Of a stretch of DNA of 64,000 bases, positions 3,564-56,539 are shown one piece after another. The DNA comes from a virus. A program made the translations under genes and the position numbers. The stretch's first letter is position 1. Each line of letters opens with the position of its first letter. The stretch spans positions 1 to 64,000 of IMG/VR virus record IMGVR_UViG_3300009419_000012; one strand, 5' to 3'. A model generated the notes under the pieces. That model did not search any database. It saw nothing but the letters and a program-made list of their open reading frames with translations, and was not told the origin of the DNA.

Positions 3564-5534
3564 TTAATCTTCTGAAAACACCACAGCAAAAGTACAGCGA
3601 CTGAGGTTAGACGAAGAAGCAATAGCAAAACTAATACTTGCACCTGGAGGCACGGTTACTCGAAAATCACGCATGGGATAACTGACCTGGCCATTGATGG
3701 CTGTGGCAAATCGGCAAATGGCTGTGTCCACTGCGGCGTCAAATGTGCCAGTCACTGTTGACACCATGCCGTTGTCTTTGGGTTGACTAAAATAGTCGTG
3801 TGTGGTACTAAAACTGACAGCATCATAGAACACATACAGCACAGCAGGATCGTTGCCCTGTGTGGCCACCGTGATGTCTTTCAATATAATCTCTTTGGCA
3901 TTGAACACATAGTTACCGTTTTGAGCGCCACTCTTGCCATTGGTCACATAGGGATTACGCAGAGTTAACAGGTGATGCACAGAGCCAGTGTTCAAGCCGG
4001 TTTTGTTCACACTGGTTGAACGGTTTAATTCGTTTTGTCTAATGTCGCCTTCGATGGCTCCCATCATACTGGCGCCATACACAGTGGCACTGGTAGTGGA
4101 ACCCACATTCTGACTGATGTAGCCCAATCTAAAACTAGGCTGTGTAATATGCGGAACATTGTAGCGATTGGTGTAATGTTCTTGATGAAACAGAATCATC
4201 CGACCAGTTGTGTGATCTTCTATAGCATAGCGTATCACGCCTGCTCCTAACCAGCGAAAGTTGATTTGATAAACATTCAAGTGTTCGGGAGCCAGGATCA
4301 TACCACTGGGTCCGGTACCGTCCAATGGGTCTTCGCTGAAATCGTCTTGATAGGTCCAATTTTCAGTCTGTGCTACTCCCGTTTGTTTGGTGCTGAATGT
4401 GCCAGTGGCCAGTGTGCCTGCGCCAGTGCTGGAGAAACTAAAGGTGCCATTCTGTGGTCCTGTGAGCAAGGAACTGAACACTAGAGTGTTGTCCACTTGA
4501 TCCACAAACCATCCCACGAACCCATCTGCTTTATTAATAGCAACTGCTGTCGCCTGTGCTGTGCCAGCAGTGATTGATATATTGTAGGCAACACCGTTAA
4601 GTGTCACTGTGGCTGTTTGTGCTTCAGTTGGTGCGGTGTTGATAGTCAGCACAGTGATATGTGTCTTGCCACCACTGGCTCGCAACGCACCAAATCTAGG
4701 ACCATTGACACCATCATCGTGAATGCCTACCTGTATGGCTGCTTCTCTGTTGAACAAGCCGGCTCGTTGATTGGTCTGTGCTACAGTCGGGCTAAAGCCA
4801 GCAGTAAATCTAGCCAGAGCACCTTGTCCTGGACGATAGCGTAAAAATCTTCTCGATGTCAGTGCGGCATAGCCACTGCTGCTAGTTCCAGAACTTGTTG
4901 TGTATATTCCTATGTTGGCATCTGCTGTGCCTGTACCAAGTGTAAAAGTTTCTATAACTTCTGATGTGATACCGTAGATACTATCCAACTGCATAACAGG
5001 AGTTATGGTAATACCGTAGAGTTCTCCAAAAGCAGTTTCTTTACTGGCACCGCCTACGTCTACTGATCCAGTTACTTCAATGGCATTTGCGTTACTAATA
5101 CTAGCATCTACATAGATACGATTGGTAGTGGAGTTAACATTAGCATCCTTGCTTACTTTTTGTATGTTTGGGAATGTAACGTTGGCATTAACATTGCCGG
5201 TAATGGCTGGTAGAGATGTAATGCCAGCAATGTTGCCTGTCACTGTGACATTTGCATTGCCTGTTGTGACCCAGGGCGAGGTTCCTTGATTTACAGTTAG
5301 CACATTGCCCACAAGGTACACAGGTATGCGTTGTGCTTCTGTGTTGTTTACTCTAATTGCATCAACCAAGTTAACGTTGCCCGATACTGTGATGTTGTCT
5401 GAACCTAGTGTCACACGAACGTGAGGCTTGCCATCAACGCTGTATTCCATGGCCTTGTGGATGTTCAAGAGATTGCTCTCTTGCGGATGTTCGTAGTCCG
5501 TGGTGTTTAGTCTGGTGTCGCCGCGAGCTGCCAT
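3564..5534 (-). CDS. Phage structural protein (tail/baseplate-type), 656 residues
   Basis: It starts MAARGDTRLNTTDYEHPQ. It is rich in Thr, Val, Gly and Asn with repeated (V/I)TGN(V/I)-type beta segments between about residues 45 and 130. An Ala/Thr-rich region and the C-terminal SFAIASSSNLSRCTFAVVFSED follow. There are no membrane segments and no enzyme motif. Position between fibre genes and the PA14-like adhesin, on the same strand with a few bases between genes, supports a role in the adsorption apparatus. The specific family is not recognised. Confidence 0.65.
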   Translation of the reverse strand: MAARGDTRLNTTDYEHPQESNLLNIHKAMEYSVDGKPHVRVTLGSDNITVSGNVNLVDAIRVNNTEAQRIPVYLVGNVLTVNQGTSPWVTTGNANVTVTGNIAGITSLPAITGNVNANVTFPNIQKVSKDANVNSTTNRIYVDASISNANAIEVTGSVDVGGASKETAFGELYGITITPVMQLDSIYGITSEVIETFTLGTGTADANIGIYTTSSGTSSSGYAALTSRRFLRYRPGQGALARFTAGFSPTVAQTNQRAGLFNREAAIQVGIHDDGVNGPRFGALRASGGKTHITVLTINTAPTEAQTATVTLNGVAYNISITAGTAQATAVAINKADGFVGWFVDQVDNTLVFSSLLTGPQNGTFSFSSTGAGTLATGTFSTKQTGVAQTENWTYQDDFSEDPLDGTGPSGMILAPEHLNVYQINFRWLGAGVIRYAIEDHTTGRMILFHQEHYTNRYNVPHITQPSFRLGYISQNVGSTTSATVYGASMMGAIEGDIRQNELNRSTSVNKTGLNTGSVHHLLTLRNPYVTNGKSGAQNGNYVFNAKEIILKDITVATQGNDPAVLYVFYDAVSFSTTHDYFSQPKDNGMVSTVTGTFDAAVDTAICRFATAINGQVSYPMRDFRVTVPPGASISFAIASSSNLSRCTFAVVFSED

Positions 5535-31426: not shown

Positions 31427-32824
31427 TTACCCTTGTCCAGTTTTGATAGCAGCCAGCATGCTTTTGAGCTTGTTGTTGCCTACTTCAGCGTGTATGGGTG
31501 CTGTGTCTTTTATTTCACCAGTGCTGACATCCACTGTGCTACGTGCTTTGATTTGATTCATGATGCTGGTTGCTTGTGGTTGGTAGCCACTGGCTTCTTC
31601 ACCTTCATCTGTGATACGCATGGTTTCGATGTTGTAGGTTAGATCCACTTTCATGCCCATGCCTGTTGAGCTTCGACTTTTCATACACTGTATTTGATAG
31701 CGTCCACGTTCACGCATGGCTCTGCTAGTAAAGATACCAAACACATTATCTGCTGTGTTAATTTTACTAATACCACCTGAAATATGACTGTGGTCAAATT
31801 CAATTTCATCCACAGCACCACGATTAAGCTGTGACGCTGTTACCATTAGTATGCCCAGCTCTTTGGCCAAGTTACGCAGTTCTTCACTCACATACTTGTC
31901 CTTCACAAACAAGTCGTTAGGACTGACCTTGGCACTCACTGGCATCAGCAGATCCAAGTAGTCAATCATGATAAAGTCTACCCGGCGATTTGTCTGTATT
32001 TGATACTCTTTCAAAAATGCACGAATGTCATTGATATTGCTTTGCGCTGGCAAACCCTTGACCTGATATGTGCCTGACTTCTTGCCCACCATCTTGACTT
32101 TGAGTGTTGTGGTATCAATGTCCTTGCGAATATCTTTTGTGCTCATGCTACTTAACATTGCATCAGTACGCAAGCTGGTTAGTTCTTCACTCAGTTCTAG
32201 TGTGACATACACACCATGCAATCCTGTTTGAATCCAGTTAAGAGCAATGTTCATCATCACAAGAGATTTACCTGATCCTGACCCGCCTGCAAAGATGTTG
32301 AGTTCGCCGCGACTGAAGCCACCGTACAACAATTTGTCCAGCTGTGGCCATCCTGTTGACACTTGCCCGCCTGAGTTGAAATACTTGTTGATGCGTTCTG
32401 CAGGATCTGCAAAGTAGTCTGTGCCTAGGTCTTTTTGCAAACTGATCTGCACAGCATCTTTGATCAGTTTTTCTACAGGATTGAAATCACCGTTTTCAAT
32501 TAGATCAGCGGCTTTGAGAATTGCACGTTCTAGTTCTTTTTGTTTGGTAAAGTTTTCAAACTCTTCCAGGAACCAGCTGGTGTGTCCTTCATTTAGATCC
32601 GGCACTGGTCTCAGTTCCACACCAGTTGTGGCACGTATTTGATCTAGGTTGGGTAGAGTCTTGTGTTTTTCGCTGTGTTCTTTGATAAACTTTGCCACTG
32701 CACGTAAACTGCGATCAAAGTTTTCTTCGTTGTAGATGTTCTGCACACGCACATAGCTACCTGCGTCATGCAACATCATTTCAAGAAATAACTTTTGTAA
32801 GTCTGGATTGTAGTCTTTTGTCAT
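31427..32824 (-). CDS. Replicative DNA helicase, DnaB/gp41-like
   Basis: 465 residues. N-terminal helical domain (1-150), then a RecA-type motor: STGWPQLDKLLYGGFSRGELNIFAGGSGSGKS (Walker A near residue 178), VYVTLELSEE, FIMIDYLDLLMP (Walker B), MVTASQLNRGA (sensor) and a C-terminal arginine-rich block. The layout and length are those of T4 gp41. The ATG overlaps the primase stop by four bases, coupling the two primosome subunits. Confidence 0.93.
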   Translation of the reverse strand: MTKDYNPDLQKLFLEMMLHDAGSYVRVQNIYNEENFDRSLRAVAKFIKEHSEKHKTLPNLDQIRATTGVELRPVPDLNEGHTSWFLEEFENFTKQKELERAILKAADLIENGDFNPVEKLIKDAVQISLQKDLGTDYFADPAERINKYFNSGGQVSTGWPQLDKLLYGGFSRGELNIFAGGSGSGKSLVMMNIALNWIQTGLHGVYVTLELSEELTSLRTDAMLSSMSTKDIRKDIDTTTLKVKMVGKKSGTYQVKGLPAQSNINDIRAFLKEYQIQTNRRVDFIMIDYLDLLMPVSAKVSPNDLFVKDKYVSEELRNLAKELGILMVTASQLNRGAVDEIEFDHSHISGGISKINTADNVFGIFTSRAMRERGRYQIQCMKSRSSTGMGMKVDLTYNIETMRITDEGEEASGYQPQATSIMNQIKARSTVDVSTGEIKDTAPIHAEVGNNKLKSMLAAIKTGQG

Positions 32825-33888
32825 AGCTTATTATATAGTGTTTTGCTCTTGAGCTCAATCTTTAAGGCACTCGTCTCACGAGCGTCCAGTATGCTTTTGA
32901 GAACAAACAAAGGGCCAAGGTGTTCCACCGCAGAAGCTGTGTCTTTGTATTTTTCGCTCCACACCGGAAAGCTCACAGTCCATCCATAGCCTATTGCCGC
33001 ATCAATAAGACTGCGCCCGGGCCAGACTTTTTTACCTGTGCGTTCGTTCACGTGTACATCAAAGTCGGGCACCACTATGACTTCTCTACCAAGGCTTTCA
33101 ATGATGTCTGCTTGTGTATCATTTATTTCGTTGCTCAAGATAGCCACACCATCTATGCTCATGGCATCAAATGGGCCTTCTACCACAATAACAAACTGCG
33201 AAGTTGGCCGCTGTTTGTCAACGTTGAACACAAAGTTTGGTTCGTGGCTGTTGTGATACTTGGGCTTTACTCCGTCTACTAGTGCTCTAGCAGTGTAACC
33301 AATGATTTGATTTTTCCAAGTAAACGGAATTATCACACGACGATCCAGGTTGTAACTGGACTCATCAGTTATGTAAAAGTCATATTTGTTTGTGTTTATC
33401 TTGCGATTATAAACATACTCCACTGCATTGTTAAGCTGTTCGGGCACAACATAATCATCGTCAGTTAGACCTAGCATGGTTGCCCACTCGCTGAAGCTGG
33501 CGCTGTCCTCAGGCAAGGGTCTGGGCTTGAACGTTATTTCAACTTCGGGCACTGGCGCACGTTCGGCTACTGGTACCAGCTCTTTGATACGCAAGGCCTC
33601 CATGACCAGTCGCTGTACAGTGTTGTCATCTGCACCTAGCCATTTCAACAACTTGCGGAATTTGAATCCAATTGGACGCCCAGGATAGAAGCCTGTTTTG
33701 AATCCGCAATTGAAACAATGATAGCTGACAGATCCATCTGCGTTTGGTCTGACGCCGCCGCGCTTGCGAGTGTCTACGCTTTCGCCGTTGTGCGGGCAAC
33801 AAACTGCATTGAAGCTGATCCAGTCGTTGGATTGCTTACGCCGGGCTGGCAGTAGTTGCAGTAGCTCTTGTTGTACTATATCATACAT
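32821..33888 (-). CDS. DNA primase with zinc ribbon and TOPRIM
   Basis: 355 residues from the second of two adjacent ATGs (33888), chosen because the promoter puts +1 on it. A zinc ribbon (CCPHNGES...YHCFNCGF) occupies residues 30-65. The RNA-polymerase/TOPRIM core shows RRVIIPFTWKNQIIGYTAR, VIVVEGPFDAMS (TOPRIM Glu) and VVPDFDVH (TOPRIM Asp pair). It makes primers for the phage fork with the gp41-like helicase encoded immediately downstream. Confidence 0.92.
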   Translation of the reverse strand: MYDIVQQELLQLLPARRKQSNDWISFNAVCCPHNGESVDTRKRGGVRPNADGSVSYHCFNCGFKTGFYPGRPIGFKFRKLLKWLGADDNTVQRLVMEALRIKELVPVAERAPVPEVEITFKPRPLPEDSASFSEWATMLGLTDDDYVVPEQLNNAVEYVYNRKINTNKYDFYITDESSYNLDRRVIIPFTWKNQIIGYTARALVDGVKPKYHNSHEPNFVFNVDKQRPTSQFVIVVEGPFDAMSIDGVAILSNEINDTQADIIESLGREVIVVPDFDVHVNERTGKKVWPGRSLIDAAIGYGWTVSFPVWSEKYKDTASAVEHLGPLFVLKSILDARETSALKIELKSKTLYNKL

Positions 33889-34347
33889 CATGCAAGTGTA
33901 ACATCAGTCCAAAGAATAATCAAGCCTGATGGCCGATTGGTAAATAATTTGGAGACTAAACTCGGACTATACGTGGACGACATTCTAAAAGAATTCATTA
34001 AGAAGTACCCCTTTCTAAGCTACGTGGCTTATGGCGGAAACGAATATATTGGCATTGTACAAAATGTTGACGATATCCTAACCACCGTGTATGACTACGG
34101 TTCCTTGCGAACAGAAACTGAAAAAATAAATTTCCTAGCACTTGGCGAGACCTGGTGGTGGGAAAGCAATCGCACTATTCCAATCAATGTATTTTTGAGA
34201 GCTGACTGGGGACCATTCCGCTACTGCCTTAAAACCATGAATAGCCGTGACGTGGAAATTAGACTTGGCCCTTATGTTAGCCTCAAAGAAATTGCAGCCA
34301 AAAAAACCAAACGTCGATCCATTGTTTTAGTTCGCAAAACTGAGTAA
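33868..34347 (+). CDS. Hypothetical protein, rightward gene within the replication block
   Basis: The frame runs from a TTG at 33868, overlapping the divergent primase start. In-frame TTG codons near 33932-33947 are alternatives and there is no ATG. The C-terminal 130 residues look genuinely coding: LSYVAYGGNEYIGIVQNVD, GETWWWESNRTIPINVFLR, KTMNSRDVEIRLGPYV. No known domain. Its 3' end overlaps the convergent gene by 21 bases. The start is uncertain. Confidence 0.55.
   Translation: MLYYIIHHASVTSVQRIIKPDGRLVNNLETKLGLYVDDILKEFIKKYPFLSYVAYGGNEYIGIVQNVDDILTTVYDYGSLRTETEKINFLALGETWWWESNRTIPINVFLRADWGPFRYCLKTMNSRDVEIRLGPYVSLKEIAAKKTKRRSIVLVRKTE
33895..33923 (-). promoter_or_regulatory. Sigma-70-like promoter for the primase, leaderless geometry
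   Basis: Minus strand: TTGATT (33918-33923), 17-base spacer, TACACT (33895-33900). The seventh base after the -10 is the A of ATG 33888, the second codon of the longest frame. Confidence 0.65.
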
Positions 34348-34908
34348 GTTCATATTTACTACTACCAATTGAGCATATGCTATGGCATGGCTTTTTTTGA
34401 AATAGTAGGAATCATCCTGTGGCTTTTCCCAAACTGTGACAGCAATATCACGCCAGGCCTGCCCTATTAGGTGTCGTTTGGCAGGACGTATAACACTGAG
34501 CAACATGGCCAGGCGTGGAATTGAATCCACAGGTTCTGGCATTTTCTTCAATGTGTTCCAGTGATTGTTCACATGTATCAGCTGTTCAAAGAACCCTTGA
34601 TCTGTGTTGAAACGATTCCAATCTGGTGGCGCTTGCATGAGTTCTTGCAAATGTGCTTCATTGCGTATCTGCTGATAAAGAGTAACATTCAAGAAATCCA
34701 GTTTTAGATATCCACGACTTTCCGCAGTTTCATAGTCTAGGCTGGCAATGCCCAACACAGGATCCACAGGAACGTCTGTGACATATACGCCTGTGTTGTG
34801 CGGTACCAGTTTTGTATCTTTGAGCTGGCTAGCAGGCACGTGTTTTACCAGTGCTAGAATCTTTTGCCTGTCAGCAAAGTCAATATCAATGTCTGATTGG
34901 AATTTCAT
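34327..34908 (-). CDS. Miniature DnaE (C-family DNA polymerase) core-like protein
   Basis: 193 residues from the ATG at 34908 (ATGA overlap with the upstream stop). Short blocks follow the order of the bacterial Pol III alpha catalytic core: SDIDIDF (DnaE P-D-F-D-x-D-F, two catalytic Asp), VPHNTGVYVT (DnaE K-H-A-G-G-V-V-I), GYLKLDFLNV (DnaE G-L-V-K-F-D-F-L-G, third Asp), a LLSVIRPAKR helix (DnaE L-F-R-P-G) and YYFKKSHAIAYA (DnaE F-N-K-S-H-S-A-A-Y-A). The PHP, OB and tau-binding parts are absent and loops are deleted. Either a very reduced polymerase or a domesticated relic; activity is unproven. Confidence 0.6.
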   Translation of the reverse strand: MKFQSDIDIDFADRQKILALVKHVPASQLKDTKLVPHNTGVYVTDVPVDPVLGIASLDYETAESRGYLKLDFLNVTLYQQIRNEAHLQELMQAPPDWNRFNTDQGFFEQLIHVNNHWNTLKKMPEPVDSIPRLAMLLSVIRPAKRHLIGQAWRDIAVTVWEKPQDDSYYFKKSHAIAYAQLVVVNMNLLSFAN

Positions 34909-35606
34909 AGCCCTGCTTGCCCTAGCACATGCTTGCACCATTCAGTGTCAGCCACGTAGTCTTTGAATTTTCGTTGCCAAAAGTCTGGATCAATCCAGTC
35001 AATCAGTATGGCCACTTGACCTTCGTCCAGCCCGTCAAGAAACTCAACTCCAGTATCACAAGAGTATATGATCCAAGGACTTATCCTGCCAGTGACCACA
35101 TGATGACAAATGCGGTTGGCATTGGCATACCTGAAGTAATCCCTAAAGCCGTTTTTAAGTTCAGGATGTTCGTCTGCATAACTCTGCATCTCATTGAGCG
35201 CACGTTCAAGCGCATCCTGTGGAGATTCTTTCTTTAGATACTCATGCAACCACTCTTCGTAAAAACTGTCCTTGCACCAGTGATCTATTTTCTTGTTGTT
35301 CTTTAACAACCAGTCAGTAAAGTGCTGGCTGTTGATTGCTCTGATACCCACCATGTACCGCCCAAACTTAACAAATGCATTGTAATAAGGACTGGTCACA
35401 AAGTCTTCATAGCTTTTGAGTCGAGCACTGCCTTGTGTGGTTTCATAAAAACGCAAGTATGCTCGTAGACCCAGTTGCACCCCTGTTTCTTTTTCCTGTT
35501 GCCACCTGCGCTTTTGCTCGCAAAGATGCGCCGCAAGTGTTGACTCCTTGCGAAACTCTTTTTCACAATAACGACACTTAAAGGTCTGACTTGATTCGCT
35601 TGTCAT
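34905..35606 (-). CDS. Zinc-finger protein of the replication block
   Basis: 233 residues. The N-terminal FKCRYCEKEFRKESTLAAHLCEQKRR is a C2H2/C2HC-type finger. The remaining 190 residues are helical and aromatic-rich (LRAYLRFYETTQG, FGRYMVGIRAI, IIYSCDTGVEFL) without a known domain. It is translationally coupled to the DnaE-like gene downstream and overlaps the gp62-like gene upstream, so a DNA-binding accessory of that protein is plausible. Confidence 0.6.
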   Translation of the reverse strand: MTSESSQTFKCRYCEKEFRKESTLAAHLCEQKRRWQQEKETGVQLGLRAYLRFYETTQGSARLKSYEDFVTSPYYNAFVKFGRYMVGIRAINSQHFTDWLLKNNKKIDHWCKDSFYEEWLHEYLKKESPQDALERALNEMQSYADEHPELKNGFRDYFRYANANRICHHVVTGRISPWIIYSCDTGVEFLDGLDEGQVAILIDWIDPDFWQRKFKDYVADTEWCKHVLGQAGL

Positions 35607-36042
35607 CCCACCCTAGTTCCTTTGCCGTGCGTTTGATATCTTCTTTGCTGTTGATGCTGGCAAGCAATTCAAGATCATCTCGCTTGAGATGTGGATACAA
35701 CTGATTCAAAAACTTTAGATGCTTGTTTTCGTAGCCAGCATTTTTTTTCTTGTTTGGAATATACTGATGCTTGAATGTACCAATGCCAGGACTTACTGCC
35801 GTGGCACATAGCCATTGTAACTTTGGATGTTTGCTGATGTCAAAGTAGTTGGTGTTGAGATTTTCATTACAACTCATCACATAGTAAGCCTGGATGTTGC
35901 TGGGCGCTTGCACTTGACTGCTCCAACGCAACATCAAATACAAACTAAATTTCTTCTTTTCTTCGTCAGTCAGCTCATCGTAGAAGTCTCGATTCTTACG
36001 ATCCAGCTGTGCCATTTCGTTGTTGATGTTTAGCTTATCCAT
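35578..36042 (-). CDS. Possible gp62-like clamp-loader small subunit
   Basis: 154 residues. RKNRDFYDELTDEEKKKFSLYLMLRWSS, NTNYFDISKHPKLQWLCATAV and NKKKNAGYENKHLKFLNQLYPHLK form an order recalling gp62 of T4-like phages (short helical start, hydrophobic R-W/F-x-S segment, N-x-x-x-x-x-x-x-K-x-P). The C-terminus ends DIKRTAKELGWDDKRIKSDL. The assignment rests on pattern and position, since gp44 and gp45 are not in the window. Confidence 0.4.
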   Translation of the reverse strand: MDKLNINNEMAQLDRKNRDFYDELTDEEKKKFSLYLMLRWSSQVQAPSNIQAYYVMSCNENLNTNYFDISKHPKLQWLCATAVSPGIGTFKHQYIPNKKKNAGYENKHLKFLNQLYPHLKRDDLELLASINSKEDIKRTAKELGWDDKRIKSDL

Positions 36043-37107: not shown

Positions 37108-38562
37108 TTATTGCCATTCTGTTTTTTCTACCGCAAAAGGATAGTTAGCTTCTTTATAAAATTGTTTACGTTTGGTCAAATGGCGTTTGGCAAACTTGCA
37201 TGTGCTAGTAATGTCCCATATCTGCACAAAGTCTTTGTCTTCTGCTTTGCGAATACCACGTCCAATACTTTGTATAACCCTAACAAAACTCTTTCCAGGT
37301 TCAACCAAAACCAAGTTAAAGATCCTGGGTATGTTGATACCCACAGCAGCCACACCGTATGTGGCCACAATGATTTTGCCTGTTGCTGTGGCCACGTCAT
37401 CGTATTCATCTTGTCTGTCCTTTGCTTTGGTTGCACCCGACACAAATACTGCATTGTCGCCCAGGCGTTTGACCAGTTCTTGTCCTGCGGCCACACGGTC
37501 TACCAAGATAAGAGTATTGCCTGTGTCTTTGATGGTGCCTGCTAGCTTGGCAATGTAGTCCAATCGCTCAGGTGTGTCTAGTAGGTATTTGAGTTCGCTT
37601 TGATAGTTTGAGTATTCCACATGGTCCACAAGTTGCACCACGTTCACGTGACATTGACTAAGGTGTCCTGCTTCTTGTAGTGTTGCGGCCTTCAAACTGC
37701 CCACAACCTCGCCAAGAGCACACTTGATGCTCATCCACTCATATTGCTCTTTGGGTATGGTTCCTGTGAGTCCCCAGCGAATAGGAATGTGCCCCATCAC
37801 TCCTGTCAGCAGAGTCTTTAATGCATCTGCTTTGGCCATGTGTACTTCATCTACAATAACACACACAACATCTTCCAAAAACTCACCAATGGTGATATCT
37901 GCTTCTGCATTTTTTGTGTTCTTGAGCAAGATGTTTAGACTTTGCCAGGTGCAGATTGTGTGCTGGCGACCAAACTCTTTGAGATCTCCAAAGTACACAC
38001 CAACGTCAAGCCCCATGTTGAGATAGTCTTTGTGTGTTTGTGTCACTAGACTCTTGTTGGGCACAATAACAATACTACGACCATAGGGTGTGACTGCATC
38101 GCTTAGTGCGGCTGTGATAACAGTTTTACCTGCACCTGTTGCCACTTCTTGCACACTTTGCGGATTCTCAAAGAAACGATTTATAATCTCCACCTGATAG
38201 TCACGCATGGCCATGGGCTGACCTTCCATTGGGTGACCCTTGGGCCAGGCAATGTGCCCGTAACTGTTTTCAGTTACTGCGGTAAAATCAAATGTGGTCT
38301 TGTAGTCGCGAGTGTCTTCAACATCAATATCATAACCTTGTTCGGTTAGATAAGGCAGAATCTCAGGCAGCAGATTGATGTAAGTGCTACCCCCTAATTG
38401 GAAAAAGCTAACCTTGCCATCCCAACGTCCCAGTCGCACTGCGGGCAAGTATCTTGCTCCAGGAATATCAAACTTAAATTTATCTACTAGTGCTTTGCGT
38501 TCAGCAAGTTCTAGTCCTTCAATTTTTACGTTTACTTCGTCTTTAATAATCAATTTTGCCAT
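37108..38562 (-). CDS. uvsW: UvsW-like superfamily 2 helicase
   Basis: 484 residues. N-terminal DNA-binding module with GARYLPAVRLGRWDGKVSFF (the typical UvsW/XPB-like start). Motor domain 1: MRDYQVEIINRF (Q-motif), ATGAGKT (Walker A, about residue 143), VIVDEVHMA (DExH) and GLTGTIP. Motor domain 2: LILVDRVAAGQEL, VATYGVAAVGINIPR, QSIGRGIRKAEDK. In T4 this enzyme unwinds R-loops and branched DNA and helps the switch from origin- to recombination-dependent replication. Its mRNA is predicted to be leaderless. Confidence 0.93.
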   Translation of the reverse strand: MAKLIIKDEVNVKIEGLELAERKALVDKFKFDIPGARYLPAVRLGRWDGKVSFFQLGGSTYINLLPEILPYLTEQGYDIDVEDTRDYKTTFDFTAVTENSYGHIAWPKGHPMEGQPMAMRDYQVEIINRFFENPQSVQEVATGAGKTVITAALSDAVTPYGRSIVIVPNKSLVTQTHKDYLNMGLDVGVYFGDLKEFGRQHTICTWQSLNILLKNTKNAEADITIGEFLEDVVCVIVDEVHMAKADALKTLLTGVMGHIPIRWGLTGTIPKEQYEWMSIKCALGEVVGSLKAATLQEAGHLSQCHVNVVQLVDHVEYSNYQSELKYLLDTPERLDYIAKLAGTIKDTGNTLILVDRVAAGQELVKRLGDNAVFVSGATKAKDRQDEYDDVATATGKIIVATYGVAAVGINIPRIFNLVLVEPGKSFVRVIQSIGRGIRKAEDKDFVQIWDITSTCKFAKRHLTKRKQFYKEANYPFAVEKTEWQ

Positions 38563-38603: not shown

Positions 38604-39734
38604 TTACCCAAGTTTATGGTTAAAATAAATAATCTTCCGGCTGTTCTGCACCATGAGTGATTTTTCTGCGCCGGCCAACAACCCAGCATGACTGATCAGT
38701 AACGGGATAGTGTCAAGCTCTCGCATGACCTTGTGTGTCCATATCACTGGTGCATCAGATACATTTGTTTTGTTTTTGTTGCCTTGAACTTCTACGTTTT
38801 CTGTGCCCAATAGCTCAAGGTATTTTTGATCACTGCCGCTGGCACTAGGGTCAAACACAATCATGGGCAATCTATTTACCAGCTGTGCATAGGCAAACAG
38901 CCTGGGTATTTGTCCAAAATCTCCAATGAGTTCGTAACTGGACTTGCGTATGAACACACTGATGTCTGGACCAGCAATGTGATCAACTTCTGCCCACACA
39001 CTGTCACTGATAGTGTAGCCTAGCTCACTGCCTAGGTCAGCCAGTCGCAGTAGATTATCATCTGTAAAATCCACACCTTGTTCTGCCAAGTACTCTAGCA
39101 AACTTGATTCAGCGTTTTCAATTCTAAGTTGACCATTGATTCGTGTTAGTTCAATTGCATAAGTCTGTTGTTCTGCGGCTAGAATCTCATCCATGATCTC
39201 ACTCAGCTCTTCGCTGATCTCAAACTGGTTGGCCTTGGCCCAGGCCACAACAAAATTTACATTGAACTCGCTCAGTGCAATGTTCCAGCTTTTTTCTTCT
39301 TTGTCAAATTGTGCAAAGCCTTGTCGTTGTTGTAGCAACTCTCTCAACTGTTGAATCATTTTAGTGTCGTAAGGAAACTTCAACACCATATGGTCGCCGT
39401 CAACCCAACAACGTCGACTCCGGTCAAGCATGCGCAAGGGTTTACGATACTGTGGCGCCGCCATTGGCTCAATGTTGATTCCTTTGCTGGCCAGTTGTCG
39501 TTGATACTTGAATATCAACTTCAAGGCAAGGTCGGCTTGACGATCAGTTAGTGCGCCTGAGCCGAGTGTGTGGTCAGTAACACTGTCAAGAAAGGATGTG
39601 TCATAACGTGCTAGGCTTACAATAGGATCAAACTCATAGCCAAGCCAACCAGAGCTCTTGACATTGCCTTGTGCAATATCTCTTTTGCCGGCTATCACTT
39701 CTAAATAATCTTCGACCGTAGGAAAGGTTTTCAT
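38604..39734 (-). CDS. Hypothetical replication-associated protein with HARP-like domain
   Basis: 376 residues from the ATG at 39734 (MKTFPTVEDYLEVI), where the promoter places +1. LKFPYDTKMIQQLRELLQQRQGFAQFDKEEKSWNIALSEFN (about residues 120-160) has the pattern of the HARP annealing domain of SMARCAL1-type helicases, but no helicase motor is attached. The C-terminal part (LRLADLGSELGYTIS, PVIWTHKVMRELDTIPLLISHAG) is unassigned. It lies next to UvsW and could act with it as a separate DNA-annealing module. This is inferred from context. Confidence 0.5.
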   Translation of the reverse strand: MKTFPTVEDYLEVIAGKRDIAQGNVKSSGWLGYEFDPIVSLARYDTSFLDSVTDHTLGSGALTDRQADLALKLIFKYQRQLASKGINIEPMAAPQYRKPLRMLDRSRRCWVDGDHMVLKFPYDTKMIQQLRELLQQRQGFAQFDKEEKSWNIALSEFNVNFVVAWAKANQFEISEELSEIMDEILAAEQQTYAIELTRINGQLRIENAESSLLEYLAEQGVDFTDDNLLRLADLGSELGYTISDSVWAEVDHIAGPDISVFIRKSSYELIGDFGQIPRLFAYAQLVNRLPMIVFDPSASGSDQKYLELLGTENVEVQGNKNKTNVSDAPVIWTHKVMRELDTIPLLISHAGLLAGAEKSLMVQNSRKIIYFNHKLG

Positions 39735-39739
39735 GCTGT

Positions 39740-39768
39740 ATTGTAACACCTGCATAAACAGAAGTCAA
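39740..39768 (-). promoter_or_regulatory. Sigma-70-like promoter built into a terminator tail
   Basis: Minus strand: TTGACT (39763-39768), 17-base spacer, TACAAT (39740-39745), five bases, ATG 39734. The two leading T of the -35 are the last T of the upstream terminator's T-run. Confidence 0.7.
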
Positions 39769-51652: not shown

Positions 51653-52378
51653 TTAGTTGATAATAGGTTGTCCGTTGGGTGCAATGTTGCCATACACACC
51701 AACTTCGTCAAGCTCATGCACAAGTTCTCTAGGAATGCCATGATACAAACAGTGTTCAATATCTGCATATCCGCCAACGGCCATGCGATTGACCATGTAG
51801 TTTCTACCAATGTTGTAGTATTCAATCATGTCCTGATGTCTTGAAGTTGGCCAACTGAGCAAACGGCACATGTACTGCATGTGCATGCCCACTACTTCAA
51901 ACGGAAACTGACTGCGTACACTTTTACCAATTACTACTTTGTCTTTGATTTCTTCTTGCTCGTACATGGACAGATCAAATTTTTCGTTTAGTAAGTAACG
52001 TCCACTCATTTTGAAAATACGATCTTGATCTTGTATTTCACCTGCATCCCAAAGAGTTTGTAGACTCTGTGGGAATGTTGTGAGCTCTGTGAGATTTTTA
52101 ACAATGTCCCAGTTGTTGTAAAATTGCGGAGTACTGTAGATATATTGCACATCTGAATTTTTTGTAAAATCCAAAAATATATCCACAGCATCCATCAATG
52201 CGTTTTCAGTTTCGGGTGTGTAACCGCTACCACTGACTTCGTTGATTACAATTTTGCATTCTGGAACACGATCTCTAAGACATTTAATAGTGTCCAGAGT
52301 CTGTTGTAGTCGCTGGGTGTGATTGTACACACCAAAGCGAGTGTGAATGGCAGATGTTACAATAAACGTTGTTTTCAT
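51653..52378 (-). CDS. Glycan-cluster protein of unknown function
   Basis: 241 residues from the ATG at 52378 (MKTTFIVTSAIHTRFGVYN), ATGA-coupled to the upstream dehydratase. IVINEVSGSGYTPETENALM, RIFKMSGRYLLNEKFDL and ADIEHCLYHGIP. The K-M-S-G-R-Y segment is seen in uncharacterised sugar-transfer proteins, but no catalytic motif is certain. Confidence 0.5.
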   Translation of the reverse strand: MKTTFIVTSAIHTRFGVYNHTQRLQQTLDTIKCLRDRVPECKIVINEVSGSGYTPETENALMDAVDIFLDFTKNSDVQYIYSTPQFYNNWDIVKNLTELTTFPQSLQTLWDAGEIQDQDRIFKMSGRYLLNEKFDLSMYEQEEIKDKVVIGKSVRSQFPFEVVGMHMQYMCRLLSWPTSRHQDMIEYYNIGRNYMVNRMAVGGYADIEHCLYHGIPRELVHELDEVGVYGNIAPNGQPIIN

Positions 52379-53406
52379 TTGCGCAACCACCGATCATTGA
52401 TCAATGTCCAATCCACAACTTCTTTCACACGCTCGCTGAGTTTGATCTTAGGAATCCAACCCAGAGTTTCCAGCAAGCCGCCGTCTAGTGCATAGCGCAG
52501 GTCATGTCCTGGACGACTGGTATGGAAGTCCACCATCTCGTGCTTGAGTGGTTTGCCTTGTGCAGTGGCAATAAGTTGTGCCAGCTGTAGGTTATCAATT
52601 TCTTCTGGCCCAACCAAGTTGAACTTGGGACACTTGGCGCCACCGTAGTCGCTTTCGTGTTTGTAGTTTTGTAGTTTTTCAAGAATAAACATCAAGCCAT
52701 CTGCCACATCCTTGGCGTGGATGTAGTGGCGTGAACCTGCTTGAGTCTTGCTTGGATCGCTGTGTACAGTAACAACTTCACCGTCACGAACTTTCTGGAT
52801 CACCATTGGAATATACTTTTCTGGGTGCTGGCGTTCGCCAAACACGTTCATGGTATGTGTGACCACAATGGGCATCTTGTAGGTGTTTTCAAATGCCACG
52901 CACAGTTCTTCTGCGGCTGCTTTTGATGCTGAATACGGATTGGTTGAATTGTAACGATCGTATTCTTTGTAGTTCACACCAGGAGGTGCTGGGCCAAACA
53001 CTTCGTCTGTTGAGAAGTTGATAAAGCGTTCCAGATTTGGAAGTGTACGTGCCCACTGTAGTAGATTGACTGTGCCTACCACATTGTCCATGACAAATTC
53101 CATTGGATATTCGATTGAACGATCCACGTGTGATCCTGCCGCAAGGTGCAACACATAATGTATGTCACCAATCATGCCACTGGTGAGTGGGCTGATTTCT
53201 GCTTTGAGATCATGAAACACCGGACGCACACGTTTACGAGTTTCCGGATCATGTTCTTGCATCATGTCTGCAAGACGATTTAGGTTACCACTGAAATCCA
53301 AACGATCTAGCGTGACTATGTTCCAGTCAGTAGTTGTTAGGATACGATCAATGATGTGATGGGCGATGAAACCGGCGCCGCCGGTAATTAGAACGTTCTT
53401 TGACAA
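52375..53406 (-). CDS. NAD-dependent sugar epimerase/4,6-dehydratase (RmlB-like)
   Basis: 343 residues, extended SDR. ITGGAGFIAHHI (NAD site), HLAAGSHVDRSIEYP, STDEVFG (catalytic Thr-Asp-Glu) and YSASKAAAEEL (Tyr-x-x-x-Lys). The Asp-Glu after Thr fits a 4,6-dehydratase, not an epimerase. First gene of the leftward glycan arm, preceded by an exact TATAAATA late box. It would provide a 4-keto-6-deoxy sugar nucleotide. Confidence 0.88.
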   Translation of the reverse strand: MSKNVLITGGAGFIAHHIIDRILTTTDWNIVTLDRLDFSGNLNRLADMMQEHDPETRKRVRPVFHDLKAEISPLTSGMIGDIHYVLHLAAGSHVDRSIEYPMEFVMDNVVGTVNLLQWARTLPNLERFINFSTDEVFGPAPPGVNYKEYDRYNSTNPYSASKAAAEELCVAFENTYKMPIVVTHTMNVFGERQHPEKYIPMVIQKVRDGEVVTVHSDPSKTQAGSRHYIHAKDVADGLMFILEKLQNYKHESDYGGAKCPKFNLVGPEEIDNLQLAQLIATAQGKPLKHEMVDFHTSRPGHDLRYALDGGLLETLGWIPKIKLSERVKEVVDWTLINDRWLRK

Positions 53407-53437
53407 TTTGAATTCTCCAATGCGTAATTGATATCAA

Positions 53438-53445
53438 TATTTATA
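53438..53445 (-). promoter_or_regulatory. Exact T4 late promoter consensus TATAAATA
   Basis: The minus strand reads CTATAAATATTG about 32 bases before the ATG at 53406. It is back to back with the rightward sigma-70-like promoter at 53482-53510, so the two glycan arms may be expressed at different times. Confidence 0.65.
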
Positions 53446-53481
53446 GGTGCAGTTTTAGCTGGCATTGATTTCTCTAAGCAC

Positions 53482-53510
53482 TTGCTCTACACACATTAAA
53501 TAGCTATACT
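53482..53510 (+). promoter_or_regulatory. Sigma-70-like promoter for the rightward glycan operon
   Basis: TTGCTC (53482-53487), 17-base spacer, TATACT (53505-53510). The leader of about 27 bases carries GGAG (53535-53538) before the GTG start. Confidence 0.65.
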
Positions 53511-53543
53511 CAACACTATACATTATTTTTCAATGGAGCACAA

Positions 53544-54596
53544 GTGAAAAAGGCACTCATCACCGGTATTACCGGACAAGACGGATCATACCTAGCAGAT
53601 CTACTGCTGGAAAAAGGCTACGAAGTTCATGGACTGGTACGCCGCAACTCAAATTTTGAGTTCATACCCAACATCATGCACATACGTGATAAAATCACAT
53701 TGCACTACAGTGATCTCACTGACGGAAGCAATCTACGCAACATCATGCTCAAGGTGCGCCCAAACGAAGTTTACAATTTGGCCGCACAAAGTCACGTGCA
53801 TGTGAGCTTTGATGTTCCGGTGTTCACTGCCGAAACCAACGCAGTGGGTGTGCTCAACATACTAGAAGCTGTTCGTGCGCTGGTTGAAGATCAGCGCCGA
53901 AACAACGAACCAGAAACACGTTTCTACCAGGCCAGCACAAGCGAAATGTTTGGTAAAGTGCAGGAGGTTCCACAAAAGGAAACCACTCCATTCTATCCAC
54001 GATCACCATATGGTGTTGCTAAACTATACGCCTACTGGATCACAGTGAACTACCGTGAGAGCTATGGTATTCATGCATCAAACGGCATCTTGTTCAATCA
54101 TGAAAGTCCACGTCGTGGCGAAACATTTGTTACTAGAAAAATCACATCTGGACTGGGCAGGCTGTTTGCTGGTATCCAAAATGATCCAATCAAACTGGGC
54201 AACATGGATTCCATGCGTGACTGGGGACATGCCATGGACTTTGTGGAAGGCATGTGGCTGATGCTACAGCAAGATGAGCCCGACGACTATGTACTGGCCA
54301 CAGGCGTACAACATTCAGTACGTGATTTCCTTAACATGTGTCTAAACTGGTACAAATGCACCTGGGGTTATTTTGGAAACGGCCCAACTGAATATGCAAT
54401 TGACATGATTAGTAAACGGACTATTGTGCAAGTTGACCCAGCATTGTATCGACCTGCTGAAGTAAACACCTTGCTGGGTGACAGTACCAAGGCACGTGAA
54501 AAACTAGGATGGAGTCCAAAGTTTAATATTGAAAGTCTTGTACGTGACATGTGCTCGGCAGACTATCGTGGTCTGCAGGATGGGTATCGCCCATGA
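53544..54596 (+). CDS. gmd: GDP-mannose 4,6-dehydratase
   Basis: 350 residues from a GTG with GGAG five bases upstream. [20 protein letters not shown] (NADP site), [28 protein letters not shown] (catalytic Thr-Ser-Glu), [15 protein letters not shown] (Tyr-x-x-x-Lys) and [16 protein letters not shown] are hallmark Gmd motifs; length is standard. It converts GDP-mannose to GDP-4-keto-6-deoxymannose. The next genes suggest this feeds a 3-dehydration step and not only fucose synthesis. Confidence 0.95.
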
Positions 54597-55363
54597 AAGT
54601 AGTTGTAGCCACAGGAGGCTTTGATCCTGTACACTCAGGGCACATCGCCTATTTCAAACATGCCGCTACCCTGGGAGATATCCTGCTGGTAGGGCTAAAC
54701 TCAGATGCTTGGCTGCGCCGTAAAAAGGGTCGTGCATTCATGCCCTACACAGAACGTTCAGCAGTGATTGGCAATCTGGCCATGGTGCATCAGGTGTTGG
54801 AACTAGAAGACAGTTGTGGCACAGGTGCAGACGGTATTCGTCAGGCTCGTGCGCTGTATCCAGACGCAGAGATTGTGTTTGCCAATGGCGGCGATCGCGG
54901 AGCAGGCAATGTACCTGAGCAAACAGAGTTTGCTGATGATACCAAAGTGCTATTTGAGTTTGGTATCGGAGGAGACTGGAAGCAAAACAGTAGCCGTTGG
55001 ATTCTAGACGAGTGGAAAGCACCACGCACAGAAAAGCCCTGGGGCGAGTTTCGCCTGCTACATGACTACGGTGCAGAAACAAAACTAAAAGAACTCACTG
55101 TGCAACCTGGACAAAGACTCAGCATGCAGAAACATGCCAAGCGTTCGGAGTTCTGGTTTGTTGCAGAAGGACAAGCAACTGTGTATACTATCAACTCCCG
55201 CACCACTGATGCAGAGCTGGTAGGTGTATTTGGCAAGCATCAGAGCGTATGGATTAGCAAAGGCGAATGGCATCAATTAGTTAATGATACCGATAAGCCA
55301 CTACAGCTGGTAGAAATACAGTACGGCGAAGACTGCGTCGAAGAAGATATTGAAAGGAAATAA
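54593..55363 (+). CDS. Cytidylyltransferase-cupin (phosphomannose isomerase-type) fusion
   Basis: 256 residues from the ATG at 54593 (ATGA overlap with gmd). Residues 1-135: nucleotidyltransferase fold with [17 protein letters not shown] (H-x-G-H motif), [16 protein letters not shown] and [10 protein letters not shown]. Residues 145-256: type II phosphomannose-isomerase-like cupin with [31 protein letters not shown] and KGEWHQLVN. The two activities are usually separate proteins. The cupin could supply mannose-6-phosphate or bind the sugar, while the transferase activates a sugar or alditol phosphate. Confidence 0.85.
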
Positions 55364-56539
55364 ATGTCACAACCACGTTGGCCCCTAATGAAGAATGCGA
55401 TTACCTGGGGTGATCGCTTGAGCATGGTAAAGTTTTTGCTTACCAGTGAGAAATACACAAACGGACCACGTGTTCGTGAATTTGAAGCGCAATGGGCAGA
55501 CTGGGCAGGTAGCAAACATGCTCTCATGGTCAGTTCAGGTAGCACAGCAAACACCTTGATCATCAGTGCTGTTAAAGAGAAAATGGGTTGGAAAAACGGC
55601 GATAAGATTCTTGTGCCCGCTTGTACCTGGGTTACCAACATCAGCCCTGTGTTCCAATCAGGACTAACACCAATCTTCTGTGATGTTAACTTGGACAACT
55701 TCAGCTTTGATGTTGAACACATGAAACAGATTGCAGTCAAGCATCCTGACATCAAGGGTATCTTTGTAACTCACTTGCTGGGCTTCTCGGCTGAGAATGA
55801 AAAGTATCAAGAAATCTTCCCCAAAGCAGTTATCCTAGATGACGTGTGTGAGAGTCACGGCTGTACTGACACCAGTGGTGTTCGTCGTGGTGGTAAAACC
55901 ACCACAGCAGGTAGCTTTAGCTTTTACTTTGGTCATCACATGACCACAATCGAAGGTGGTATGGTCAATGTAAACGACAGTGAACTATACGAACTAATGC
56001 GTATGAAACGCAGTCACGGCTTGGCACGTGAATCAGGCAACTTAAAAAAGTATGCAGATCAGCACCCAGAGATTCACCCACAGTTCTTGTTCATGACAGA
56101 CGGCTATAACCTACGCAGTTCAGAAATCAACGCTGTGCTGGGTATGAGCCAGTTACCACGCTTGGATGGCATGATTGAACAGCGCCGTGATAATTTTAGA
56201 CAGTTCTGCTCTATCATGTGGAATCACCAAGACAAGTTCCATCCTGTTACATGGCAAGAAGGCAACAGTAACTTTGCTTTCCCATTCATTTGCAAGACAC
56301 CAGAAATGGCCAAACAAATGAAACAAGTGTTTACCCGCGAAGGTGTTGAGCATCGTCCTATTGTGGGCGGCAACTTGCTACGTCAACCATTCCTGGCAGG
56401 GCACAAGTTTGGTGTTCCTAAAAAGAACAGCAACGTTGACTTGCTGAACGACAACGGTGTTTACATTGGCAACAGTCACTTTGTCACAAGCAAGGATATG
56501 GATTGGCTAGAAGAGACCTTGGAGAAGATCAGTGCATAA
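55364..56539 (+). CDS. ColD-like sugar 3-dehydratase of the DegT fold (His for Lys)
   Basis: 391 residues, DegT/DnrJ/EryC1 family: MVSSGSTANTLIISA, PACTWVTNISPV, HLLGFSA and LDDVCESHG (PLP Asp). The PLP-lysine position is histidine (FYFGHHMTTIEGG, His191), as in ColD and RfbH, which dehydrate at C3 and do not aminate. Directly downstream of gmd, whose product GDP-4-keto-6-deoxymannose is the ColD substrate. The expected product is GDP-4-keto-3,6-dideoxymannose, precursor of colitose. RfbH-type Fe-S cysteines are not evident, favouring ColD-type chemistry. Confidence 0.85.
   Translation: MSQPRWPLMKNAITWGDRLSMVKFLLTSEKYTNGPRVREFEAQWADWAGSKHALMVSSGSTANTLIISAVKEKMGWKNGDKILVPACTWVTNISPVFQSGLTPIFCDVNLDNFSFDVEHMKQIAVKHPDIKGIFVTHLLGFSAENEKYQEIFPKAVILDDVCESHGCTDTSGVRRGGKTTTAGSFSFYFGHHMTTIEGGMVNVNDSELYELMRMKRSHGLARESGNLKKYADQHPEIHPQFLFMTDGYNLRSSEINAVLGMSQLPRLDGMIEQRRDNFRQFCSIMWNHQDKFHPVTWQEGNSNFAFPFICKTPEMAKQMKQVFTREGVEHRPIVGGNLLRQPFLAGHKFGVPKKNSNVDLLNDNGVYIGNSHFVTSKDMDWLEETLEKISA

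Follow-up and report, generated by a model that had tools for sequence, protein, structure and literature searches.

We conclude that a 193-amino-acid protein encoded in a 64,000-nucleotide stretch of viral DNA (positions 1 to 64,000 of IMG/VR record IMGVR_UViG_3300009419_000012, hereafter the window) is a remote homologue of the alpha subunit of DNA polymerase III (Pol III alpha). It is the C-terminal half only, and in relatives the nucleotide-binding half comes from a distant, separate gene; we call the two proteins the C half and the N half. T4-like jumbo phages probably have a minimal C-family DNA polymerase built of two chains, of which this gene would supply the C-terminal one. Our case rests on homology, residue conservation, the position of the split and the co-occurrence of three genes, all established computationally. 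The family itself is already known, both from PHROGs and from a 2021 publication, and the window adds a member to it. What we add is mainly the co-occurrence with a zinc-finger gene, together with the exact break point between the two chains and the finding that the steric gate has been kept.

The open reading frame begins with an ATG at 34908 on the minus strand and its stop codon ends at 34327. An alternative in-frame ATG at 34941 would give a protein of 204 amino acids, but relatives support 34908 as the likely start. Residues 2-190 match PHROG 11778, annotated 'DNA polymerase' (E=2.9e-58), 63 phage records cover at least 80% of the protein, with 32-48% identity among the matches listed, and 141 IMG/VR stretches encode relatives. 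Between the window gene and a relative 93% identical to it (L001), dN is 0.046 and dS 0.59, a ratio of about 0.08; the C half evolves under strong purifying selection. Given the PHROG match, the relatives in phages and IMG/VR, and a dN far below dS, the reading frame is not a chance one, and we regard it as a genuine gene.

Table 1. Features of the window around the gene for the C half.
Feature	Position	Strand	Evidence
DnaB-like replicative helicase (T4 gp41-like)	31427..32824	-	phrog_19, E=3.4e-67
DnaG-type primase (T4 gp61-like), next co-oriented gene downstream of the C half	32821..33891	-	phrog_47, E=4.7e-33
Small convergent gene overlapping the 3' end of the C-half gene; phrog_11637 matches residues 43-157	33868..34347	+	
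C-terminal half of split minimal Pol III alpha (Mg2+-binding palm and O-helix), 193 aa	34327..34908	-	PHROG 11778, AlphaFold, PDB superposition, hhalign, conservation
Zinc-finger helical protein, 233 aa, phrog_11058; probable third subunit or accessory factor	34905..35606	-	PHROG, model, co-occurrence
Conserved neighbour, 154 aa, phrog_11758; overlaps the start of the zinc-finger gene	35578..36042	-	relative in 129/151 sequences searched
UvsW-like DNA helicase, same replication block	37108..38562	-	phrog_16, E=2.9e-74

Almost every phage that carries the C half is a jumbo phage of the RaK2, PA5oct/MIJ3 or Atu_ph07 kind. Their copies are often annotated as hypothetical or membrane proteins; the older GAP32 record (L084:4959-5609) and several of its relatives, for instance, bear the membrane-protein label. 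For Atu_ph07 (L081:5001-5576), the match begins at 5001 but the RefSeq coding sequence only at 5082, so that the conserved Asp-rich start is missing from the annotation. Fourteen loci come from contigs placed in bacterial or archaeal MAG bins; these are presumably phage contigs. In 13 MAG contigs (L261-L273, assigned to Chitinophagaceae, Pelagibacter, Pacearchaeota and others) the C-half and zinc-finger genes are found together, and these are most likely misbinned phage contigs.

As a single sequence, the C half matched nothing in Pfam or NCBIfam, and a plain sequence search of the PDB returned only spurious matches; 19 of 80 relatives touched the PF17657 DNA_pol3_finger profile weakly. For the structural comparison we used an AlphaFold model built on an alignment of 80 window and IMG/VR sequences (mean pLDDT 94.3), against which 621 Foldseek candidates were re-aligned. 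Ranks 1-12 among the PDB entries all went to Pol III alpha or PolC, with Taq alpha 458-836 first (3e0d; Z 9.6, rmsd 3.6, 189 of 193 residues); 187 residues superposed on E. coli alpha (DnaE) 397-779 with a Z of 8.8, whereas the next unrelated fold reached only Z 3.4. Foldseek alone gave the same top matches with modest E-values. An independent profile-profile comparison by hhalign with a profile of 12 diverse DnaE-type sequences yielded a probability of 97.8%, against 0.1-0.4% for eight column-shuffled controls, which, combined with the structural match, argues that the similarity is not due to chance. These results bear out the homology to the C-family palm proposed in an earlier note made from the sequence alone. 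The five DnaE blocks on which that note relied (SDIDIDF, PHNTGVYVT, GYLKLDFLN, LLSVIRPAKR and FKKSHAIAYA) are all found in this reading frame, in the order seen in Pol III alpha.

Residue correspondences with E. coli were taken from the profile and structure alignments. D6, D8 and D10 of the C half correspond to D401, D403 and D405; K69 and D71 to K553 and D555; R141-P142 to R639-P640; and F170-K-K-S-H174 to F756-N-K-S-H760. In E. coli Pol III alpha, D401, D403 and D555 are the active-site Asp residues and H760 is the modelled steric gate (PMC8485763). Like a full DnaE or PolC, the C half has the three metal-binding palm Asp (D6, D8 and D71) and a steric-gate His on the O-helix (H174). D6, D8 and D10 are unchanged in 124 of 124 distinct C-half sequences, K69, D71, H37 and G40 in 125 of 125, and R141, P142, K144 and H174 in 123 of 123, so the earlier note was right that the three catalytic Asp are kept. 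None of the three outcomes that the note had named as counting against its reading occurred.

The C half nonetheless falls well short of a DnaE core. It begins at E. coli residue 397, past the GS motif (R362-G363-S364) and past the PHP domain, and ends at residue 779, leaving out the HhH, clamp-binding and OB parts. Just 33 of its residues cover E. coli 397-507, where most of the DnaE thumb lies, and between R141-P142 and F170 the 115-residue stretch at 641-755, which holds R709/R710, is reduced to 27. The protein has lost the thumb and most of the fingers, and, as there is no room for the R709/R710 finger region, dNTP binding must differ from that in E. coli. A full DnaE or PolC has a PHP domain, a thumb, complete fingers, HhH and a clamp-binding C-terminus, none of which is found in the 193-residue protein, and carries the GS motif in the same chain, whereas the relatives have it in another gene. 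The earlier note's reading of a miniature of the DnaE core is apt as to the palm but not as a stand-alone core, since the protein starts too late and its GS-motif half lies elsewhere.

So reduced a protein could instead be a catalytically active nucleotidyltransferase that works without a template, for example by adding or repairing a few nucleotides at the ends of DNA. In pol-beta-fold enzymes, metal and GS residues are enough for nucleotidyl transfer, and a chain with about 27 residues for the fingers part from E. coli 640 to 756, and 33 for 397-507 with the thumb, would suit such an activity. However, two parts that Pol III uses for templated dNTP selection have been kept: the O-helix with its steric-gate His, and the middle portion of DnaE as far as the RP motif. 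We therefore consider a non-templating enzyme unlikely, and favor a templated polymerase.

The missing half is a small protein of about 170-180 amino acids with a GVGRGSS... motif. In each of nine complete phages, PF07733 scored above its curated cut-off on a small reading frame containing G-x-G-R-G-S. This gene is distant from the C half in eight of the nine; in XacN1 the two are about 15 kb apart. On a 168-kb contig (L012) with a C half 70% identical to that of the window, about 125 kb separate them. The N half was present in every listed C-half record except one partial record of 109 kb, although the query used also detects full-length DnaE genes in a few cases. No fused or adjacent form turned up among about 90 N-half and 163 C-half loci. 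The G-x-G-R-G-S-x3-S pattern (G, G, R, G, S and the later S) is invariant in 92 of 92 distinct N-half sequences. When the N and C halves of 16 genomes were joined, they were colinear with DnaE over 254 columns (99.7%, E=3e-25), and this concatenation places the chain break at E. coli 393/397. Neither the N half nor a B-family polymerase was found on the 75.7-kb record to which the window belongs; as that record is a fragment, their absence is no contradiction.

Conservation on this scale bears on another reading, in which the module has lost catalysis and been repurposed for DNA binding or as a replisome scaffold. The earlier note had raised a repurposed DNA-binding module as an option, and the gene is indeed short, adjoins a zinc-finger gene and occurs in phages with a full B-family polymerase. 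A dead protein, however, would have no need of metal ligands, K69, H174 and a separate GRGS motif that never vary among the roughly 124 and 92 distinct sequences of the two halves. We thus think it quite improbable that the module is inactive.

The zinc-finger gene lies directly upstream and, as the earlier note had suggested, is coupled to the C-half gene; its stop and the C-half start share the letters ATGA. The finger residues in the window are C11-C14-H27-C29, and across the family the C-C-H-C finger is near-invariant and is followed by a helical body. Of 50,697 phage records, 61 contain a member, and every one of the 61 also has the C half, which itself is found in 63. By accession, the 62 C-half records listed include 59 of the 60 zinc-finger records listed; the remaining one, MT708547, has to be the 63rd C-half record, the one left unlisted, as organism counts give 11 Klebsiella records and 10 are listed. 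The two C-half phages lacking a zinc-finger match, Slicko01 and Slickus01, are near-identical; close to the C half of Slicko01 lies a diverged C2H2 gene. Zinc-finger genes that do not adjoin the C half are found elsewhere in the same genome. Because N-half and zinc-finger records track C-half records, the three genes form one phyletic set. Because all 61 zinc-finger records have the C half, the zinc-finger protein is probably a third subunit, one that would hold the DNA or the complex in place.

Given its adjacency, and a G173-[RK]-x-[ST]-x-W178 motif that resembles GRGS, we asked whether the zinc-finger protein might itself be the N-terminal half. Its model (pLDDT 93) is all-helical with no DnaE-like fold; the sole PDB match above Z 2 was a flagellar C-ring protein (Z 2.3), with no DnaE chain among the matches, and its profile comparison with DnaE gave 0.7%, the level of shuffled controls. 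Since the true GRGS half is present elsewhere in every complete phage, we dropped this candidate motif and regard the idea as very unlikely.

The surroundings are those of a T4-like replication block, as had been noted from the sequence: a gp41-type DnaB-like helicase, a primase and a UvsW-like helicase are all in the window. Most phages viewed share, apart from local insertions, the order of zinc-finger gene, C half, convergent gene, primase and DnaB-type helicase; XacN1 deviates from it. The convergent gene keeps the same place in most of these phages, and in PAC2, GAP32 and RaK2 a UvsW-type helicase gene likewise lies upstream of the C half. The phrog_11758 gene travels with the C half and is a possible further partner. 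Beyond the UvsW-like helicase, a 383-amino-acid reading frame at 38604-39755 (-), followed by an ATPase-like gene, had no PHROG match at 1e-5. Farther away, two nucleotide-sugar epimerase-like genes on opposite strands and an aminotransferase gene (52375-56539) suggest a sugar-biosynthesis cluster of the phage.

In one clade (L064:3444-4001 and L070:3453-4001), an Rv2179c-like 3'-5' exonuclease (PF16473, E about 1e-34) is encoded directly upstream, overlapping the C-half start, and the zinc-finger gene is elsewhere in the genome. This exonuclease is possibly a proofreading partner in that clade. As a general partner, a proofreading exonuclease was rejected: RNase_T scored above cut-off in only six of nine complete phages, and was not found on the window's record.

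We also considered whether the gene could be a decaying remnant of a host-derived dnaE, as it is truncated relative to DnaE and the authors of the CBB genome called their own copy truncated (PMC5259590). The low dN/dS, the invariant catalytic residues, the conserved synteny and the strict three-gene co-occurrence refute this reading, to which we give almost no credence.

On how the halves would assemble and catalyse, and on what the zinc-finger protein and the enzyme as a whole would do in the cell, we infer the following. The C half would supply the metal-binding D6, D8 and D71 (D10 is also kept), the palm K69 and the O-helix steric-gate H174, while the N half, of ~175 amino acids, would supply GRGS and bind the triphosphate. 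Between them, the two chains would restore the equivalent of E. coli Pol III alpha ~317-779, though without the thumb and most of the fingers, and form one active site. There the Asp triad would hold two metals, dNTPs would be added by a two-metal mechanism, and H174 would keep ribonucleotides out. With no thumb and little of the fingers, weak processivity is to be expected unless a partner grips the DNA, and the zinc-finger protein, whose gene is the coupled one upstream, would be the natural candidate for holding the DNA or the complex. Lacking also PHP, HhH and a clamp-binding tail, the enzyme may make short stretches, in primer extension or hand-off, gap filling or repair. The earlier note's proposal of a primer-extension or translesion enzyme is, on this evidence, no more than a guess. 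A B-family polymerase is present in nine of nine complete phages, in keeping with the earlier note's view that it is the main replicase of this group; together with the primase and helicase close by, this suggests that the split enzyme is likely a low-processivity auxiliary DNA polymerase working beside that replicase. A bolder version, in which the three chains form an obligate thumbless C-family polymerase of about 600 amino acids in total, with the zinc-finger protein replacing the grip of thumb and fingers on DNA, is a tentative proposal that we hold to be possible but rather less than probable. To our knowledge, no such three-chain architecture has been described in cells.

If active, the enzyme would rank with the smallest C-family DNA polymerase cores that we know of, its parts split over two distant genes. 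Such an enzyme would reveal how far Pol III can be cut down with templated synthesis kept, and would offer a simple system for studying the origin of the bacterial replicase family. The strict co-occurrence of the three genes makes the published prediction testable with three small proteins.

With bacterial DnaE (E. coli and T. aquaticus), the phage enzyme shares the palm D401/D403/D555 and K553, the RP motif, the O-helix H760 and, in trans, the GS motif; it differs in consisting of two chains and in having no PHP, thumb, HhH, clamp-binding, OB or tau-binding parts. Error-prone C-family polymerases of the DnaE2 type also work beside a main replicase, but DnaE2 is one long chain, unlike the split phage enzyme.

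Among phages, the records of CBB, Atu_ph07, GAP32 and RaK2 contain relatives 32-48% identical to the C half that belong by similarity to the same protein family, PHROG 11778. In GAP32 (GAP32_282) and RaK2 (ORF124), the gene likewise lies between a zinc-finger region and primase/helicase genes. A truncated Pol III alpha in CBB (PMC5259590) and a DNA polymerase III alpha subunit in Atu_ph07 (PMC6102473) were reported by the respective authors, and the published CBB_328 and gp316 may be either the C or the N half. Our searches of the open-access literature found no experimental study of the split enzyme. Iyer et al. (2021, PMC7824862) predicted a previously unrecognised split minimal Pol III alpha in group 2.2 jumbo phages; they suggest that it may help in the synthesis of one strand or in repair, and they read it as a model of the ancestral form. 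The main text of that paper makes no mention of a C2H2 or other zinc finger (PMC7824862). Their system and the family studied here, as far as that text describes it, have in common a C-terminal Mg2+-binding unit, a distant N-terminal NTP-binding unit and, in the phages that carry them, a B-family polymerase; the window gene encodes just such a stand-alone, palm-like C-terminal unit. Nothing contradicts the assignment, and we conclude that the window gene belongs to the split minimal Pol III alpha of Iyer et al.
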